From assembly GCA_018262895.1 (NCBI GenBank), contig JADFDJ010000002.1, forward strand, positions 62,001 through 126,000: a DNA stretch of 64,000 nt, in the 5' to 3' direction. The notes beneath the pieces are model-generated. The model did no database searches. It was not told the DNA's origin and was given only the letters and a program-made list of their open reading frames with translations. The stretch is from Methanomassiliicoccus sp. (GTDB lineage: Archaea; Thermoplasmatota; Thermoplasmata; Methanomassiliicoccales; Methanomassiliicoccaceae). Positions 8,233 through 58,155 of the stretch are shown piece after piece; position 1 is the stretch's first letter, and every line of letters begins with the position of its first letter. The position numbers and the translations under genes were made by a program.

Positions 8233-10078
8233 GATTATCGGCATAGATCTAGGCACCAGCAACTCGGCGGCCGCAGTGATGGAGGGCGGTAGGCCGACGA
8301 TCATTCCCAGCGCGGAAGGGACCAGCATAGGCGGAAAGGCCTTCCCGTCGTACGTGGCGTTCACGAAGGACGGCGAGCTCCTGGTGGGCGAGCCAGCCAG
8401 GAGGCAGGCGATCACCAACCCTGAGGGGACGATCGCCGCCGCCAAGAGGAAGATGGGGACGGACTATAAGTTCAAGGTGCACGGTAAGGAGTACACGCCC
8501 CAGCAGATCTCTGCCTTCATCCTGCAGAAGATAAAGCGTGATGCCGAGGCCTTCCTCGGTGACACCGTGGATAAGGCCGTCATCACCGTACCCGCCTACT
8601 TCAACGATAACCAGAGGCAGGCCACCAAGGATGCAGGGGCCATCGCCGGCCTGGAGGTGGTGAGGATCATAAACGAGCCCACCGCCGCTGCTCTCGCTTA
8701 CGGGCTGGACAACGTCAAGCAGTCGCAGAAGATAATGGTCTTCGACCTTGGCGGGGGAACCCTGGATGTCACCATCATGGAGTTCTCCGAGGGTGTTTTC
8801 GAGGTCATCTCCACCTCCGGCGACACACAGCTGGGAGGCACGGACATGGACCAGGCCCTCATAAACTACGTGGTCGCGCAGTTCAACAAGGACACTGGCA
8901 TCGATCTCACCAAGGACAAGATGGCCATGTGGAGGGTCCGTGAGGCCTCGGAGAAGGCCAAGATCGAGCTGTCCTCGACCATGTCTACGGAGATCAACCT
9001 CCCGTTCATCGCCGATCAGAACGGGCCCAAGCATCTGGCCATGAGCATCACCAGGGCGAAGCTGGAGGAGCTCGTAAACCCCATAGTGGAGCGTTGCCGG
9101 GCTCCTTTGACAAACGCCATGCGCGACGCTAAGCTCACCCCGGAGCAGATCAACAACATCATCCTGGTCGGCGGTCCCACCCGCATGCCCATCGTCCAGA
9201 GGTTCGTTGAGAACGTGGTGGGCAAGAAGATCCAGAGGGGCATCGACCCCATGGAGTGCGTGTCCATGGGTGCGGCCATCCAGGGCGCGGTCCTGTCCGG
9301 TGAGGTCAAGGACATCCTGCTGCTGGACGTCACACCCCTGTCCCTCAGCGTGGAGACCCTAGGCGGCATTGCCACCAAGCTCATCGAGCGCAACACCACC
9401 ATACCCACCCGAAAATCGCAGGTGTTCTCCACCGCTGCCGACTACCAGCCCAGCGTGGAGATCCATATCGTGCAGGGGGAGAGGGAGATGGCCGCCGACA
9501 ACGTTTCCCTGGGCAAGTTCCAGCTGACCGGCATACCGCCTGCGCCGAGAGGCGTCCCCCAGATCGAGGTCACCTACGACATCGACGCCAACGGCATCAT
9601 CAACGTGTCCGCCAAGGACCTGGGGACAGGCAAGGAGCAGAAGATCACCATCACCGCCACCAACAAGCTGTCCAAGGACGAGATCGATAAAATGGTGAAG
9701 CAGGCCGAGCAGTTCTCCGAGGAGGATAAGAAGCGCAAGGAGAAGGTGGAGACCCTGAACCAGGCGGACAATCTGCTGTACACCACAGACAAGACCATCA
9801 TCGAGCTGGGAGACAAGGTCACCGCCGAGGAGCGGGAGAAGGTAAAGAAGGCCAGTGACGAGCTGCGGGAGACCCTGAAGTCCGACGACATCGCGGCCAT
9901 CAAGGCCAAGATGGATGCACTGGTAAAGGAGATGTCGACGGTATCGACCCGCATCTACCAGGCCGCGGCCGCCGAGCAGCAGGCCCAGCAGGCGCAGGCC
10001 CCGCCCCCCGGGGACGACAAGAAGGACCAGGGCGGGAAAGGGGACTTCACGGATGCCGACTACCACATCGTCGACTGA
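8225..10078 (+). CDS. dnaK: DnaK, Hsp70 chaperone
   Basis: A 617-aa Hsp70. The ATPase domain begins [10 protein letters not shown] and includes [11 protein letters not shown] and VGGPTRMP; the substrate domain follows [14 protein letters not shown]; the C-terminus is a Gln/Ala-rich linker ending DADYHIVD. I chose the ATG at 8225 over the in-frame GTG at 8216 because it gives the canonical [10 protein letters not shown] start. Hsp70 is patchy in archaea and is generally thought to have come from bacteria. Its partners grpE (upstream, overlapping) and dnaJ (19 bases downstream) are intact. Confidence 0.97.
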
Positions 10079-10097
10079 GCCTCACGGAAGCTGACCG

Positions 10098-11222
10098 ATG
10101 ACACAACGGGACTACTATGATGTGCTGGGCGTCCCCAAGGGAGCCAGCGTCGAGGAGATCAAGAAGTCGTACCGTAAGCTGGCGATGCAGTACCACCCCG
10201 ATGTCACCAAGGAGGACCGCAAGGTCGCCGAGGAGAAGTTCAAGGAGATATCGGAGGCCTACGAGGTCCTCGTGGACGATAAGAAGCGGCAGCTGTACGA
10301 CCAGTACGGGCATGCCGGGGTCAATTCACAGTTCCAGGACGGCTCGTTCAACTGGAGCGACTTCTCCCACATGGGGGACCTGCGGGACATCTTCGGAGAC
10401 AGTGGGGGCTTTGGCTCCATATTCGACATGCTCTTCGGGCGGCAATCTACACGCCGCTCCGGGGGTCGCGACGCGCGCATGGACGTGGAGATATCCCTCG
10501 AGGAATCCTTCAAGGGCGTCAAGAAGCGCATCACCGTCCCCAAGTTCGACAACTGTCCCAAGTGCCAGGGAACAGGTGCCAAGGACGGCAAGGTGATCTC
10601 TTGCCCGGACTGCAAGGGCTCGGGTCAGGTGCGCGTGGTCCAGAGCCGGGGCTTCAGCCAGTTCGTACAGGTCGGCCCATGCCGCCGCTGCCGGGGCACG
10701 GGGCGCTCAGCTTCCAACAACTGCCCCGAGTGCGACGGTCGCGGCAAGGTGCAGCGCAACTCCCACATCGATATCGACATCCCCGCGGGAGTGGAGACAG
10801 GGTCCCGCCTCCGCATCCCCGGGGCCGGTGAGGCCGGTGGTCCCGGGGAGCCCAGCGGGGACCTGTATGTGGTCCTGCACGTGAAGCCGCACTCACTGTA
10901 CGTCCGCGAAGGTCCGGACCTCATCATGGAGCAGCCCATCTCCTTCTCCCAGGCGGCCCTGGGCGCGGAGATCGAGATCCCCACGCTCGATAAGAAGGCG
11001 CGCGTGTCCATCCCTCCTGGAACGCAGCCGGATACGGTCTTCCGCCTCCGGGGCTCGGGCATGCCCATCCTGAACGAGGCCAGCCGGGGGGACATGTACG
11101 TCCGCGTCAAGCTGAAGGTCCCGGACAAGCTAACCAACGAGCAGAAGGAGATACTGAGGCGCTTCGCGGAGACCGAGGGCGAGGACAAATCGATGCTCGG
11201 GAAGTTCAAGAAGCGCCGTTAG
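10098..11222 (+). CDS. dnaJ: DnaJ, Hsp40 co-chaperone (type I)
   Basis: A 374-aa type I J-protein that delivers substrates to DnaK and stimulates its ATPase. It has a J domain with HPD at 33-35, a Gly/Phe-rich region (about 75-125), four zinc-binding repeats of the CxxCxGxG kind at 153-160, 169-176, 195-202 and 209-216, and the C-terminal substrate-binding sheets. All catalytic and zinc residues are present, so the protein should be active. It is the last gene of the grpE-dnaK-dnaJ cluster. Confidence 0.96.
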
Positions 11223-37222: not shown

Positions 37223-37924
37223 ATGAGGATCGTCGGTTTCATAAAGACCTCCCTGCTGGACTGGGACGGCCATGTGGTGTCTTCCATCTACCTCCCAGGA
37301 TGCAACTTCCTGTGCCCATTCTGCCATAACCAGGACATGGTACTGCACCCAGAATCCTTCGAGGATGTCCCCTTCGCGGTCATCGCCGACTACGTTCGCT
37401 CCAACTCCGAGTTCCTCGATGGGGTGGTGGTCACGGGCGGTGAGCCGACATTGCATAGGGACCTTCCCCAGCTGCTCCGGCAGATTAAGGAGCTTGGTAC
37501 CAAGGTGAAGCTGGACACCAACGGTACGAACCCCCAGATGCTGCGTGACATCATCGACGCAGGCCTCGTGGACTATGTGGCCATGGACCTCAAGGCGCCC
37601 CTCAACGAGAGGTATGACGACCTTGCCGGGGTGAAGGTCGACCTGGAGAGCATCAAGCGCTCCATTGAGATCCTCGAGACGTCGGGAATTGATCATGAGT
37701 TCCGCACCACCGTTGTACCTGTTCTGCTGACCGCGCAGGACGTGGAGTCCATGGCCGCGTACGTAGGTGGAACCAAGAGATACGCGCTCCAACAGTTCCG
37801 TCCGGGCAACACACTCGACCCCAACCTGAATGCCGTGAAACCATACTCCGGAGCGGCCCTCAAGGGAATGGCCGAGACCGCTGGCCGTTACGTACGCAAG
37901 GTCATCATCCGCGGTGATATCTAA
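37223..37924 (+). CDS. nrdG: Radical SAM activating enzyme, NrdG-like
   Basis: A 233-aa radical SAM protein annotated in relatives as anaerobic ribonucleotide reductase activating protein. The cluster motif is C-x3-C-x2-C in CNFLCPFC (28-35), with TGGEPTLH for SAM binding and KLDTNGT. It lacks a neighbouring nrdD, so the target glycyl-radical enzyme is not proven and a different activase role is possible. A TTAAG box about 30 bases upstream and no ribosome site suggest a leaderless start. Confidence 0.8.
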   Translation: MRIVGFIKTSLLDWDGHVVSSIYLPGCNFLCPFCHNQDMVLHPESFEDVPFAVIADYVRSNSEFLDGVVVTGGEPTLHRDLPQLLRQIKELGTKVKLDTNGTNPQMLRDIIDAGLVDYVAMDLKAPLNERYDDLAGVKVDLESIKRSIEILETSGIDHEFRTTVVPVLLTAQDVESMAAYVGGTKRYALQQFRPGNTLDPNLNAVKPYSGAALKGMAETAGRYVRKVIIRGDI

Positions 37925-38023: not shown

Positions 38024-38737
38024 TTGGAGCAGACACCAAGGCTAAAGACCAGCATTGAAGGCTTCGACAGGATACTGGAGGGAGGCATCCCTCAGGGGCA
38101 CATCGTCCTTATGGCCGGCACTCCCGGTACCATGAAATCTTCCCTTGTGTACTACATGCTCTACAACATGGCCAAGGAGAACGGGACCACCTGCGTCTAC
38201 GTTACCTTGGAGCAGTCCCGAAATTCCCTGCTGCGCCAGATGGAGAAGATGGGCATGCGCACCGAGGACGTCAAGCAGAACCTTCACGTCCTAGACCTAG
38301 GCCTGATACGCAAGAACCTCAGGCACGCAGCGGGCGGGGAGTCCTGGATGCAGGTTTTCAAGGGTTACCTCAGCTCCCTTAAGAACGACATGAACTTCAG
38401 CGTCATCGCCATCGACTCCCTGGGGGTCCTGGAGACGATATCGGACATGAGCAATCGACGCACCGACCTGTTCTACCTGTTCGAGTGGCTGAGGGACCTC
38501 AACTCCACCGTCTTCATGATCTCCGAGATATCTTCGGACCGGCTCTTCGAGGGAGCATACGATGAAGGATACCTTGCAGATGGAATAATCACGCTGAAGA
38601 TGCAGGTGGTACGGGAAGTGGAGACGCAGAGGAGGATACGCTGCGTGAAGATGAGGGAGACCAACCACGACCCCTCCTACTACTCGCTCCTGTTCTCCGG
38701 GTGCAGGTTCCAGGTTACCAAGGCCATAAGTGAGTAA
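38024..38737 (+). CDS. KaiC-family ATPase, first of three
   Basis: A 237-aa single-domain RecA/KaiC-like ATPase. The P-loop is GTPGTMKSS at 32-40, with Met where the canonical Walker A has Gly before Lys; Walker B is VIAIDSLG. The KaiC catalytic Glu-Glu pair reads Glu-Gln here (TLEQSR). The last 35 residues have the RCVKMRETNH segment typical of KaiC. The start is TTG at 38024 with AGGGGA seven bases upstream. Archaeal single-domain KaiC proteins are mostly linked to signalling, but the partners here are unknown. Confidence 0.88.
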   Translation: MEQTPRLKTSIEGFDRILEGGIPQGHIVLMAGTPGTMKSSLVYYMLYNMAKENGTTCVYVTLEQSRNSLLRQMEKMGMRTEDVKQNLHVLDLGLIRKNLRHAAGGESWMQVFKGYLSSLKNDMNFSVIAIDSLGVLETISDMSNRRTDLFYLFEWLRDLNSTVFMISEISSDRLFEGAYDEGYLADGIITLKMQVVREVETQRRIRCVKMRETNHDPSYYSLLFSGCRFQVTKAISE

Positions 38738-38750
38738 GACCGGTGTTCCG

Positions 38751-40214
38751 ATGCCCAGGATCTTGGAGTGCGCTAGGTGCGGTGCCGGAATAAGCCACAC
38801 GGACTCCCAGTGCTGGCGTTGCGGTGAGCCGTTGAAGGGCAACCCTAAGGCCAAGGCCCAACCCGCTGGAGGGAAGAGCTCGGGGGCAGGCATCAAGGAC
38901 ATCAAGGACATGCGGCCCAAGGAGAGCAATAATACCAACACCTCCCTACGTCCGCTGGTAACGGGCGATTACAACGGGAGGGAGAAGGAGCTCCAGGACC
39001 GCGAGAAGGAGCTGAGGGAGGCCATGGACGCCCTCGAGGATGAGTCCAAGGAGCTGGAGGCCGTGGCCATGGAGCTGGAGAAGGAGCGCCTGTCCATAGA
39101 GGCCTCGAGGAAACGCATCCAGGAGCGAGAGGACGAGCTTGACGCCATGGCCCTGGTGCTGCAAGAAACGGCGATGGCAGCACAGGAATACCAGAAGACC
39201 ATGACGGCGGACAAAGAAGGGGTCCAGCGCTTCAAAGAGCTGATGGCCCACCAGGCCGAGCTGGGAGAGGTCCTGGAGGAGGAGAGGGCCCGCATCCGGT
39301 GCTCGATCGAGAGGGACATGGCAGACCAGCTCAGCCGCATCGCTCAGCTGGAGGCCGAGCTGAAGGCCGCCAACGCCACTATCAGGGAGTCACAGGGATT
39401 GACGGACCCCTCACCTATTGATATCGACCAGGTTTTAGGCGAGGTCACCCAGGCCCTGAGCTCCCAGATCGGGACGGGCTTGCCCGGGGGTCAGCTGGAC
39501 CGCCGGATCAGGACCGGGATCGAGGGCTTGGACAAGCTTCTCTCAGGGGGCATCCCCGTCGGAAGTGTCGTGCTTGTAAACGGTCCCGCGGGGAGCATGA
39601 AGACCTCCCTGGCATATCACATCCTGCACCACTCCGCAAGGGACAAGGTAAAAGGCCTGTTCCTATCGCTGGAGCAGGACCGCGATTCTCTATTAAGGCA
39701 GATGGAGCGGCTCGGCATGCCGCGCGAGGAGTCCCTGGATGACCTGATGGTGGTGGACCTTGTAGACCTTCGGCGGAGCATGGAGGGTCAGAGCGGGGAC
39801 TGGAGGAACATCATCAAGCGCTATATCGAGAACGTGATGAAGGACTGCCCCTTCCAGCTTCTAGCCTTGGATTCCCTGGAATCGTTCATCTCCATGAGCG
39901 AGGTCAAGTTCTCCCGGATCGAAACCCAGGACCTGTTCGACTGGTTCCGCTCCCTAGGATTGACGGCCTTTGTGATATCGGAAACCCCCATGGCCAAGCT
40001 GGAGAACGACGGGGCCATGGAGCTGTACGTGGCCGATGGCGCGTTGGAGCTGGCCCTCAAGGAGGTGGGTGATTCGCATATCCAGAGGTGGATACGTTGC
40101 ATCAAGATGAGGGGGGCCAACATAGATCCCCGATTCCACAACATGATGCACGCGGGCAACACGTTCATACTGAGCCTGCCGATGATGAGAGCGTCCCCTC
40201 AATCCGGGGATTGA
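38751..40214 (+). CDS. KaiC-family ATPase with zinc ribbon and coiled coil
   Basis: A 487-aa protein: an N-terminal zinc ribbon (CARC at 8-11 and CWRC at 22-25), a hydrophilic linker, a long coiled coil (about 75-230, heptads of Glu/Lys/Arg/Leu), then a KaiC domain (about 255-480) with P-loop GPAGSMKTS. As in its neighbours, Met stands where the last Gly should be, and the Glu-Glu pair reads Glu-Gln. ATG 38751 is preferred; a GTG at 38730 inside the previous gene would add seven residues. Probably a scaffold or sensor that couples oligomerisation to ATP. Confidence 0.85.
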   Translation: MPRILECARCGAGISHTDSQCWRCGEPLKGNPKAKAQPAGGKSSGAGIKDIKDMRPKESNNTNTSLRPLVTGDYNGREKELQDREKELREAMDALEDESKELEAVAMELEKERLSIEASRKRIQEREDELDAMALVLQETAMAAQEYQKTMTADKEGVQRFKELMAHQAELGEVLEEERARIRCSIERDMADQLSRIAQLEAELKAANATIRESQGLTDPSPIDIDQVLGEVTQALSSQIGTGLPGGQLDRRIRTGIEGLDKLLSGGIPVGSVVLVNGPAGSMKTSLAYHILHHSARDKVKGLFLSLEQDRDSLLRQMERLGMPREESLDDLMVVDLVDLRRSMEGQSGDWRNIIKRYIENVMKDCPFQLLALDSLESFISMSEVKFSRIETQDLFDWFRSLGLTAFVISETPMAKLENDGAMELYVADGALELALKEVGDSHIQRWIRCIKMRGANIDPRFHNMMHAGNTFILSLPMMRASPQSGD

Positions 40215-40275
40215 TACCAAGCTACTCGGGGATTAAATATCCTTAGGCCAATTTATTAAGAAAGGAGTGAACAGC

Positions 40276-40989
40276 TTGCAGATCGAGCGAGTGAGGACTT
40301 ACATTCAGAACTTTGATGAGAACCTCCAGGGCGGGATACCCAAGAACCAGGTGGTCCTGCTCACTGGTACGCCAGGAACAATGAAGTCCTCGGTGGCATA
40401 CAGCATTCTGTACTACAACGCGCTCGAGAAGGGGATAAAGTCCGTGTATATGACCCTGGAGCAGTCCCGGGAGAACCTCCTGCAGCAGATGACCTCCCTG
40501 GGTATGGACGACAAGAAGGCACAGGACTACATCCAGATCCTTGACCTCGGCCTTATCCGGAAGTCGCTCACGCAGCTAAGCGCCAAGGGCACGTGGATGC
40601 AGGTGTTCAAGATGTACGCCGACAACCTCAAGCAGAGCTTCGATTACGATCTCCTCGTGGTCGACTCCCTGGACGTCCTGGAGATGGCTGCCCAGATGGA
40701 GGGGAGCCGCCGTACCGAGCTGTTCTACCTCTTCGAATGGCTGAGGAACCTCAACGTGACCTCGTTCCTCATCTCCGAGACCACCCCTGACAACATGTTC
40801 GAGAACCGCTTCGATGAGGGATACCTCGCCGACGGCGTAATATCGCTGAAGCTCCAGGAGATCGGGGAAACGGACATTCAGAGACGCATACGGTGCATCA
40901 AGCTCAGGAGCACCAACCACAAGACCGGATACTTCTCACTGCTGTTCTCTGAGGGCAAGTTCCGAGCCACCCAGGTCATCACCGAGTGA
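40276..40989 (+). CDS. KaiC-family ATPase, third of three
   Basis: A 237-aa protein of the same length as the first KaiC-like protein and clearly its paralog (shared GTPGTMKSS, LDLGLIRKSL, LFYLFEWLRNLN, FDEGYLADG). P-loop and catalytic pair again carry the Met and Glu-Gln variants. The start is TTG 40276, with AAAGGAGTGA ending five bases upstream; a GTG at 40267 overlaps the ribosome site itself. Conserved order and spacing with the second gene suggest a three-gene operon. Confidence 0.87.
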   Translation: MQIERVRTYIQNFDENLQGGIPKNQVVLLTGTPGTMKSSVAYSILYYNALEKGIKSVYMTLEQSRENLLQQMTSLGMDDKKAQDYIQILDLGLIRKSLTQLSAKGTWMQVFKMYADNLKQSFDYDLLVVDSLDVLEMAAQMEGSRRTELFYLFEWLRNLNVTSFLISETTPDNMFENRFDEGYLADGVISLKLQEIGETDIQRRIRCIKLRSTNHKTGYFSLLFSEGKFRATQVITE

Positions 40990-56736: not shown

Positions 56737-58155
56737 ATGAGATCAAGGATCGTTACGTTGAGCAAGGAGCTCAACGAAAATTTTAGGGAGCGTGACGAGG
56801 AGATCGCCGGTTCCCTCTTGGCGATGCTGTCAGGGGAGCACGTTCTTTTCATCGGCCCGCCCGGAACGGCCAAAAGCATGCTCGCCAGGGAGCTGTGCAA
56901 GTCCATCAAGGAAGGGAATTTTTTCTACTACCTGCTCACCCGGTTCACAACTCCCGATGAGATTTTCGGACCCTTGTCCCTAAGCTCCCTCCAGGAGGAC
57001 ATCTTCCGGCGGAACATAAAGGGATATCTGCCGACGGCCCACGTGTCGTTCCTGGACGAGATCTTCAAGGCCAACTCTTCCATTCTGAACTCCCTGCTCA
57101 CCATCCTCAACGAGCGCAAGTATCACAATGGCTGTGAGATCCTGGATGTGCCCCTGATATCCGTCTTCGGGGCATCCAATGAGCTTCCGGAGGAGAACGA
57201 GTCCCTGGAGGCGCTTTACGATCGGTTCCTCTTCCGCTTCTATATAGGCTACGTCCAGGACGAGACCAATTTCGTGGACATCATCCTGGGTCATTCCGAG
57301 GACTTCACGCCCTCGGTGCAGCTTACCGTGGAGGAGATCAGGAAGGAGCTGCAGGAATCGGCCGATGTCACCATCGACAATGACGTCATGGACTCCATAG
57401 TCGCCCTGAGGAAAGAGTTCCGCACCTCCAGCATCTCCATATCCGACCGGAGATGGAAGAAGATGGTCGGGGTCCTCAAGGTCGCCGCCCATAGCCTGGG
57501 CCGGGCCAATGTGGACAAGAGCATGCTCCCCATACTGAAGCACATGCTGTGGAACCGCCCGGAGGAGAAGGTCACCATCAGGAAGCGCCTGGTGGAGATG
57601 GCCGTGGCGGGAGGCCTGAACCTTGACAAGGAGCAGCAGTACCTGCAGGACCTCCACGACTCCGCCAAGCAGCTGAAGGACTTCGATCTGCCAGAGGTGG
57701 TCACGTGCAAATCGTGCGGGCAGCGTTTCTTCAACTGGAAGGGGCTGCAGGTGCACGCCTCCGCTTTCCACGACCATGCCTACATATTACCGGACGACGA
57801 GACCCTCTACCAGCTGTGGAAGCACAAGGTGTCGCCGCACCTGCTCCCAAACCTCATCGAGCTCTACGCGACCAGAGGGCACCCCGTGATACTCACCACG
57901 CCCCCTCAGGAAAAGGAGCTGTACATAAAGGAGCTGGACGACTTCCAGGAGGACATGGGGACCCTCGAGGAGGACCTGGGAAGGGAGAGGGAGGCCTTGG
58001 TGGGCATACTCAACAACAACATCTGGCTTACTCCCAGGGACCGAGAGGAGATCATGGCCCAGTACGACATCAAGACCAAGGCCATGATCAAGATGAAGAA
58101 GCTGCACTCCGAGACGCGGGAGATCGTTCTCTCGGAGGACGTGATAGAGCCCTGA
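56737..58155 (+). CDS. ravA: MoxR/RavA-type AAA ATPase with embedded C2H2 zinc finger
   Basis: A 472-aa AAA protein of the MoxR/RavA group: Walker A GPPGTAKS (40-47), Walker B VSFLDEIF (103-110), sensor 1 VFGASNELPE. At residues 324-345 there is a classical finger: C324-x2-C327-x12-H340-x4-H345, unusual for this group. The C-terminal 60 residues are charged and helical. It is followed after 7 bases by a VWA protein, the usual partner, suggesting a chaperone pair acting on metal-protein assembly; the client is unknown. Confidence 0.85.
   Translation: MRSRIVTLSKELNENFRERDEEIAGSLLAMLSGEHVLFIGPPGTAKSMLARELCKSIKEGNFFYYLLTRFTTPDEIFGPLSLSSLQEDIFRRNIKGYLPTAHVSFLDEIFKANSSILNSLLTILNERKYHNGCEILDVPLISVFGASNELPEENESLEALYDRFLFRFYIGYVQDETNFVDIILGHSEDFTPSVQLTVEEIRKELQESADVTIDNDVMDSIVALRKEFRTSSISISDRRWKKMVGVLKVAAHSLGRANVDKSMLPILKHMLWNRPEEKVTIRKRLVEMAVAGGLNLDKEQQYLQDLHDSAKQLKDFDLPEVVTCKSCGQRFFNWKGLQVHASAFHDHAYILPDDETLYQLWKHKVSPHLLPNLIELYATRGHPVILTTPPQEKELYIKELDDFQEDMGTLEEDLGREREALVGILNNNIWLTPRDREEIMAQYDIKTKAMIKMKKLHSETREIVLSEDVIEP

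Follow-up and report, generated by a model that had tools for sequence, protein, structure and literature searches.

Three tandem genes in a Methanomassiliicoccus sp. genome (2.34 Mb, 99.7% complete) encode KaiC-like ATPases in which the last glycine of the P-loop is replaced by methionine, raising the question of whether such proteins can work as ATPases and what kind of system they belong to. The original prediction saw in them a possible ATP-driven switch or oligomerization system not previously described. Here the trio (P1, P2 and P3) was analyzed in a window of 64,000 nucleotides (contig JADFDJ010000002.1, positions 62,001 to 126,000); coordinates of the trio and its neighbor refer to this window, all on the + strand.

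The gene trio and its conservation

The predicted tandem arrangement was borne out by the ORFs and by a PF06745 search, with P1, P2 and P3 lying head to tail, carrying one KaiC domain each and scoring well above the curated cut-off of 26.6 bits. P1 (38024–38737, 237 aa; 148 bits, E 3.7e-43) starts at TTG 38024, preceded by AAGGGG. P2 (38730–40214; 121.8 bits, E 4e-35) has 494 aa when read from GTG 38730 but likely starts at ATG 38751, giving 487 aa, and P3 (40267–40989; 129.5 bits, E 2e-37) has 240 aa from GTG 40267 but likely starts at TTG 40276, giving 237 aa, a start preceded by the ribosome site GAAAGGAG. P1 and P3 share 52% aa identity, and the P2 domain about 38% with either. The translated ORFs gave exactly the P-loops read initially, GTPGTMKSS in P1 (38117–38143), GPAGSMKTS in P2 (39582–39608) and GTPGTMKSS in P3 (40366–40392), the methionine being encoded by ATG in all three, together with a Glu-Gln pair (38210–38215, 39672–39677 and 40459–40464, respectively). 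All three thus depart from the canonical Walker A motif GxxxxGK[ST], its last Gly being replaced by Met, and from the canonical Glu-Glu pair of KaiC.

The zinc ribbon and long coiled coil ascribed to P2 were also recovered. The ribbon (38769–38822) consists of Cys14-Cys17-Cys28-Cys31 in a CxxC-x10-CxxC arrangement whose cysteines did not vary in 15 and 21 aligned orthologs, and in the AlphaFold2 model it is followed by two long predicted helices (residues 81–157 and 162–221) forming the coiled-coil region (residues 81–221, 38970–39392) ahead of the KaiC domain (39498–40181).

Relatives of the trio proteins were searched for in 147 genomes of the order. They were present in families f1, f2, f3, f4 and f6, and none was found in family f5 (about 100 genomes, probably Methanomethylophilaceae) or in four f1 genomes. 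The gene order P1-P2-P3 was unbroken in 27 fetched neighborhoods, most of the remainder being interrupted by contig ends; in G015 (L062), for which upstream sequence was present, P3 alone was recognized as such, preceded by an N-terminal fragment of P2. In the phylogenetic tree, P1, P2, P3 and a scattered paralog, P4, each formed one clade (SH-aLRT 99), with P1 and P3 as the closest pair (support 98), and the P2-type zinc-ribbon protein was the middle member throughout the order. Since each paralog forms its own clade and the gene order is intact, the trio was present in the common ancestor of f1, f2, f3, f4 and f6. The triplet is therefore not confined to a single genome, the outcome that would have counted against the prediction had the variant residues also been unconserved. 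P2 is 94% identical to its counterpart in PtaU1.Bin030, and the nearest relatives in a P2 profile scan of named genomes were Methanomassiliicoccales and Methanomassiliicoccus assemblies.

That scan gave matches in Thermoplasmatota only. Plasmid relatives from outside the phylum were only 24–29% identical, and the three that were read all had Gly P-loops (GDPGAGKT, GGPGCGKT and GTPGTGKT). A viral origin was rejected, there being no relative in the viral contigs searched. Across these searches (plasmids, viral contigs and the named-genome scan) the Met/Gln branch is likely specific to the phylum.

A gene for a NrdG2 radical SAM activase (37223–37924; TIGR02495, 205 bits) is a conserved neighbor that precedes P1 at 32 of the 33 loci from the order, separated from it by a steady gap of 83–142 bp in nearly all of them. 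As NrdG2 is retained in genomes without the trio, it was rejected as a functional partner and probably stands outside the trio system.

P-loop signature and predicted fold

Few residues of NTPases are as conserved as the glycine that precedes the P-loop lysine, and since it is normally essential, ATP binding by P1–P3 is not to be assumed. The Met is fixed at this position in every order locus read, and each codon must differ by two bases or more to turn Gly into Met, so the variant is not a chance occurrence. The analysis was extended to 201 non-redundant KaiC domains across the phylum, gathered by similarity to P1–P3, so that the proportions describe this branch and not KaiC proteins generally. 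A non-Gly residue preceded the lysine in 184 of these domains (175 Met, 5 Leu, 3 Tyr and 1 Phe), and the Gln of the Glu-Gln pair was found in 181 of the 184 as against none of the 17 Gly-type paralogs, which showed the variant residues to be conserved. Lys40, Ser/Thr41, the Walker B Asp133 (40663–40665 in P3) and Glu171 were each present in 184/184 non-Gly domains, and the inter-subunit KxR finger Lys212/Arg214 (40900–40908 in P3) in 183/184. Asp133, Glu171, Lys212 and Arg214 match the KaiC catalytic residues Asp145, Glu183, Lys224 and Arg226 (PMC9599734). With these four residues and the P-loop Lys and Ser/Thr virtually invariant, the members of the P1–P3 branch are, judging by sequence, probably working ring ATPases. 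Literature searches on the P-loop variant found nothing.

Class- and phylum-wide searches returned many relatives, often at least nine per genome. Tyr or Phe P-loops (GTPGTYKSS, GTPGTFKSS) were seen at L209, L210, L211 and L213 (genomes G428, G399, G449 and G425, respectively), and bulky hydrophobic residues in general are therefore accepted at this position. The window genome itself (contig G000:C4) encodes a fourth, divergent Met-P-loop KaiC with the P-loop GPPGSMKTS and a Glu-Glu pair (L149:9598–10329), adjoined by a coiled-coil protein of 376 aa that has a zinc ribbon at its end (L149:8445–9572), so that the parts of P2 occur there as two genes. The same locus holds a 1334-aa gyrase A-like protein (L149:10396–14397) that has GECFVAGTRVLT after the GyrA N-terminus and seems to carry an intein.

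The single-chain AlphaFold2 model of P3 had a pLDDT of 87.5 (92–98 in the P-loop blocks), and its nearest PDB entries were the KaiC CI domain 4tl7 (TM 0.81–0.86) and PH0186 (2zts). The model of the P2 ATPase domain likewise matched KaiC CI and archaeal KaiC-like structures. In the alignments as printed, Gly stands opposite the Met in the solved KaiC structures.

Ras-like GTPases and sensor proteins

In other families of the phylum the KaiC genes have two recurrent kinds of neighbor. The KaiC gene of f16 and f26 is followed directly by a gene for a Ras-like GTPase (PF00071, E about 1e-33), several loci having a second GTPase after the first, and in f21 a GTPase lies within the same gene run as the KaiC gene. 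This adjacency belongs to a few related families and was seen in 9 of the best 30 Ras loci. Families f23 (L116) and f19 (L227) share a common operon-like gene run that begins with a DUF7504-type KaiC, a Met-KaiC, a zinc-ribbon Met-KaiC and a Met-KaiC, followed by a small membrane protein, a DUF835 membrane protein (an assignment that at L227 scores below the Pfam cut-off) and a further Met-KaiC, with a V4R membrane protein in addition at L116. Zinc-ribbon members in other families bear different linkers, such as TPR repeats; the trio-middle protein at L227:8502–10571 (690 aa), for instance, combines a zinc ribbon, TPR repeats and a Met-P-loop KaiC domain. As the f23 and f19 zinc-ribbon members fall apart from P2 in the tree, these trios are alike in layout, with orthology unproven.

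In the window's order the trio and the Ras-like gene are not adjacent. The order has one Ras-like gene per genome (two in G144), and it adjoins a V4R-DUF835 gene. In the window genome the GTPase gene (57569–58069) and then the V4R-DUF835 gene lie at G000:C24:57569–58995 (L139, about 9570–10996), an arrangement conserved across the order, and in relatives this locus adjoins a PAC2-family gene and a gene for pyruvoyl arginine decarboxylase. The link to DUF835-type sensors, one of the hub criteria of the 2017 proposal discussed below, was thus found in f23 and f19; in the window's order it is merely indirect and runs through the Ras-V4R-DUF835 locus. The window genome also encodes two Roadblock/LC7 proteins (G000:C11:197946–198191 and G000:C12:18829–19080); Roadblock proteins are usual partners of Ras-like GTPases, and both are candidate partners of the one encoded here.

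Among the 147 order genomes, the Ras-like gene occurred in 34 of the 41 with trio genes and in 0 of the 106 without. The G007 gene counted here is fragmentary, and a weak, 32%-identical match in one f5 genome was left out. The seven trio genomes without it comprise four incomplete assemblies (G011, G017, G021 and G131) and three nearly complete ones (G009, G014 and G015). In the class sample outside the order, 113 genomes had both, 12 the KaiC type only and 6 Ras only, and copy numbers of the two correlated across the class (rho 0.70 among the matches listed). These counts are phylogenetically non-independent, and most of the contrast within the order comes down to a single loss in f5.

A possible signaling hub and its place among KaiC-type proteins

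Since the gene company consists of Ras-like GTPases and sensor proteins, a trio hub is probable; to the whole reading, of a Thermoplasmatota KaiC-type ATP-driven signaling hub whose P-loop is modified and which works together with a Ras-like GTPase and V4R/DUF835 sensors, we give an even chance. The conserved trio, the signature, the retained catalytic residues, the gene company and the co-occurrence are observed, as is the predicted fold of the models. The trio would represent a KaiC-like branch in which the last P-loop Gly became Met (or, in rare cases, Leu, Tyr or Phe) and Glu-Glu became Glu-Gln. P1, P2 and P3 would most probably bind ATP at subunit interfaces, forming a ring or mixed oligomer that the zinc ribbon and coiled coil of P2 could tether to partners or other rings. 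Driven by ATP binding and hydrolysis, the assembly would move from one state to another, and these states might be read or set by V4R/DUF835 sensor proteins and the Ras-like GTPase. The Met may slow turnover, alter release or stabilize a nucleotide-free state as in Ras G15A. A signaling or assembly role is supported by the company of Ras-like GTPase, V4R and DUF835 genes, which suggests a partnership with GTPase and sensors.

The same methionine could instead block nucleotide altogether, leaving pseudo-ATPases that act as nucleotide-independent scaffolds. Replacing the pre-lysine glycine in Ras (G15A) or Rho yields nucleotide-free mutants, and one member (L128, 10156–11466) lacks the Glu-Gln pair. 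Inactivated KaiC domains (iKaiC) also provide a precedent in archaeal signaling (PMC5847659). Dead ATPases would hardly keep the lysine, Ser/Thr, Walker B Asp, Glu171 and KxR finger with so few exceptions, however, and we consider this reading unlikely. Nor do we favor the view that the proteins are KaiC-type signaling ATPases whose Ras link is incidental, both families expanding in free-living, large-genome Thermoplasmata: the co-occurrence is structured by clade, adjacency is limited to few families and three nearly complete genomes retain the trio without Ras, but the operon-like runs of f16, f26 and f21, the V4R/DUF835 partners common to the KaiC and Ras sides and the absence of Ras orthologs from those of the 147 order genomes that have no trio genes make it rather improbable.

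A DNA-linked role in repair or replication, as RadA/RadC-like ATPases, could draw on the place of KaiC within the RecA superfamily, on SSO2452 (2w0m) as a structural neighbor, on the ability of zinc ribbons to bind nucleic acid and on the adjoining NrdG2 gene (dNTP supply). It is very unlikely given that scores with RadA/RadB models stayed at 43 bits or below (the TIGR00416 cut-off being 403), that NrdG2 persists where the trio is lost and that in other families the genes lie beside those for sensors and GTPases. A KaiC timekeeper is hardly credible: the closest solved structures are those of circadian KaiC, but the proteins are single-domain, lacking CII, no KaiB was found in the genome and KaiC models scored far under their cut-offs (TIGR02655, at most 57 bits against 546). 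A defense role was also rejected, as PADLOC gave nothing beyond weak coiled-coil or P-loop matches.

If the signaling hub is correct, the Ras link would amount to a small-GTPase pathway in methanogens and other Thermoplasmatota, outside the usually discussed Asgard archaea. The Met fixed in a large family, with the other catalytic residues kept, would offer a natural test of the role of the P-loop glycine. A bolder, doubtful extension is a phylum-wide ATPase-GTPase module, in which KaiC-like rings with a hydrophobic P-loop residue would hold nucleotide in a novel way, for example in a long-lived state or in a nucleotide-free one like Ras G15A, and regulate, or act as effectors of, Ras-like GTPases outside Asgard archaea.

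Like P1–P3, the KaiC CI domain (4tl7, 1u9i) has a RecA-type fold of similar length and equivalents of the Walker B Asp, Glu183 and the KxR finger; P1–P3 differ in the Gly-to-Met and Glu-Glu-to-Glu-Gln changes, the lack of a CII domain and an identity of only about 20–28%. ArlH, the KaiC-like protein of the archaellum (4wia, 4yds), resembles the trio proteins in having a single KaiC-like domain, but P1–P3 scored only 46–54 bits with its NCBIfam model (cut-off 215), and no archaellum genes were seen beside the trio. PH0186 (2zts), PH0284 (2dr3) and SSO2452 (2w0m), archaeal single-domain KaiC-fold ATPases and structural neighbors of the P2 and P3 models, share 23–28% identity or less with P1–P3. 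To our knowledge, none of them forms part of a trio in which one member carries a zinc ribbon and a coiled coil.

Makarova, Galperin and Koonin proposed archaeal KaiC-like signaling hubs in 2017, a proposal cited in PMC5847659; the citing paper also names REC-DUF835 in Thermoplasmata. The novelty originally claimed for the system thus holds in part: the KaiC fold, the family and the idea of archaeal KaiC hubs are already known (PMC5847659), and what looks undescribed is at most the variant P-loop, the trio whose middle member is scaffolded and the link to the GTPase, in a literature search that covered the 2017 proposal through this citing source. As described there, the proposed signaling ATPases share with the trio branch a single KaiC domain and an association with DUF835, to which the trio branch adds the Met/Gln signature, an order-wide trio with a zinc-ribbon protein in the middle and gene runs with Ras-like GTPases.
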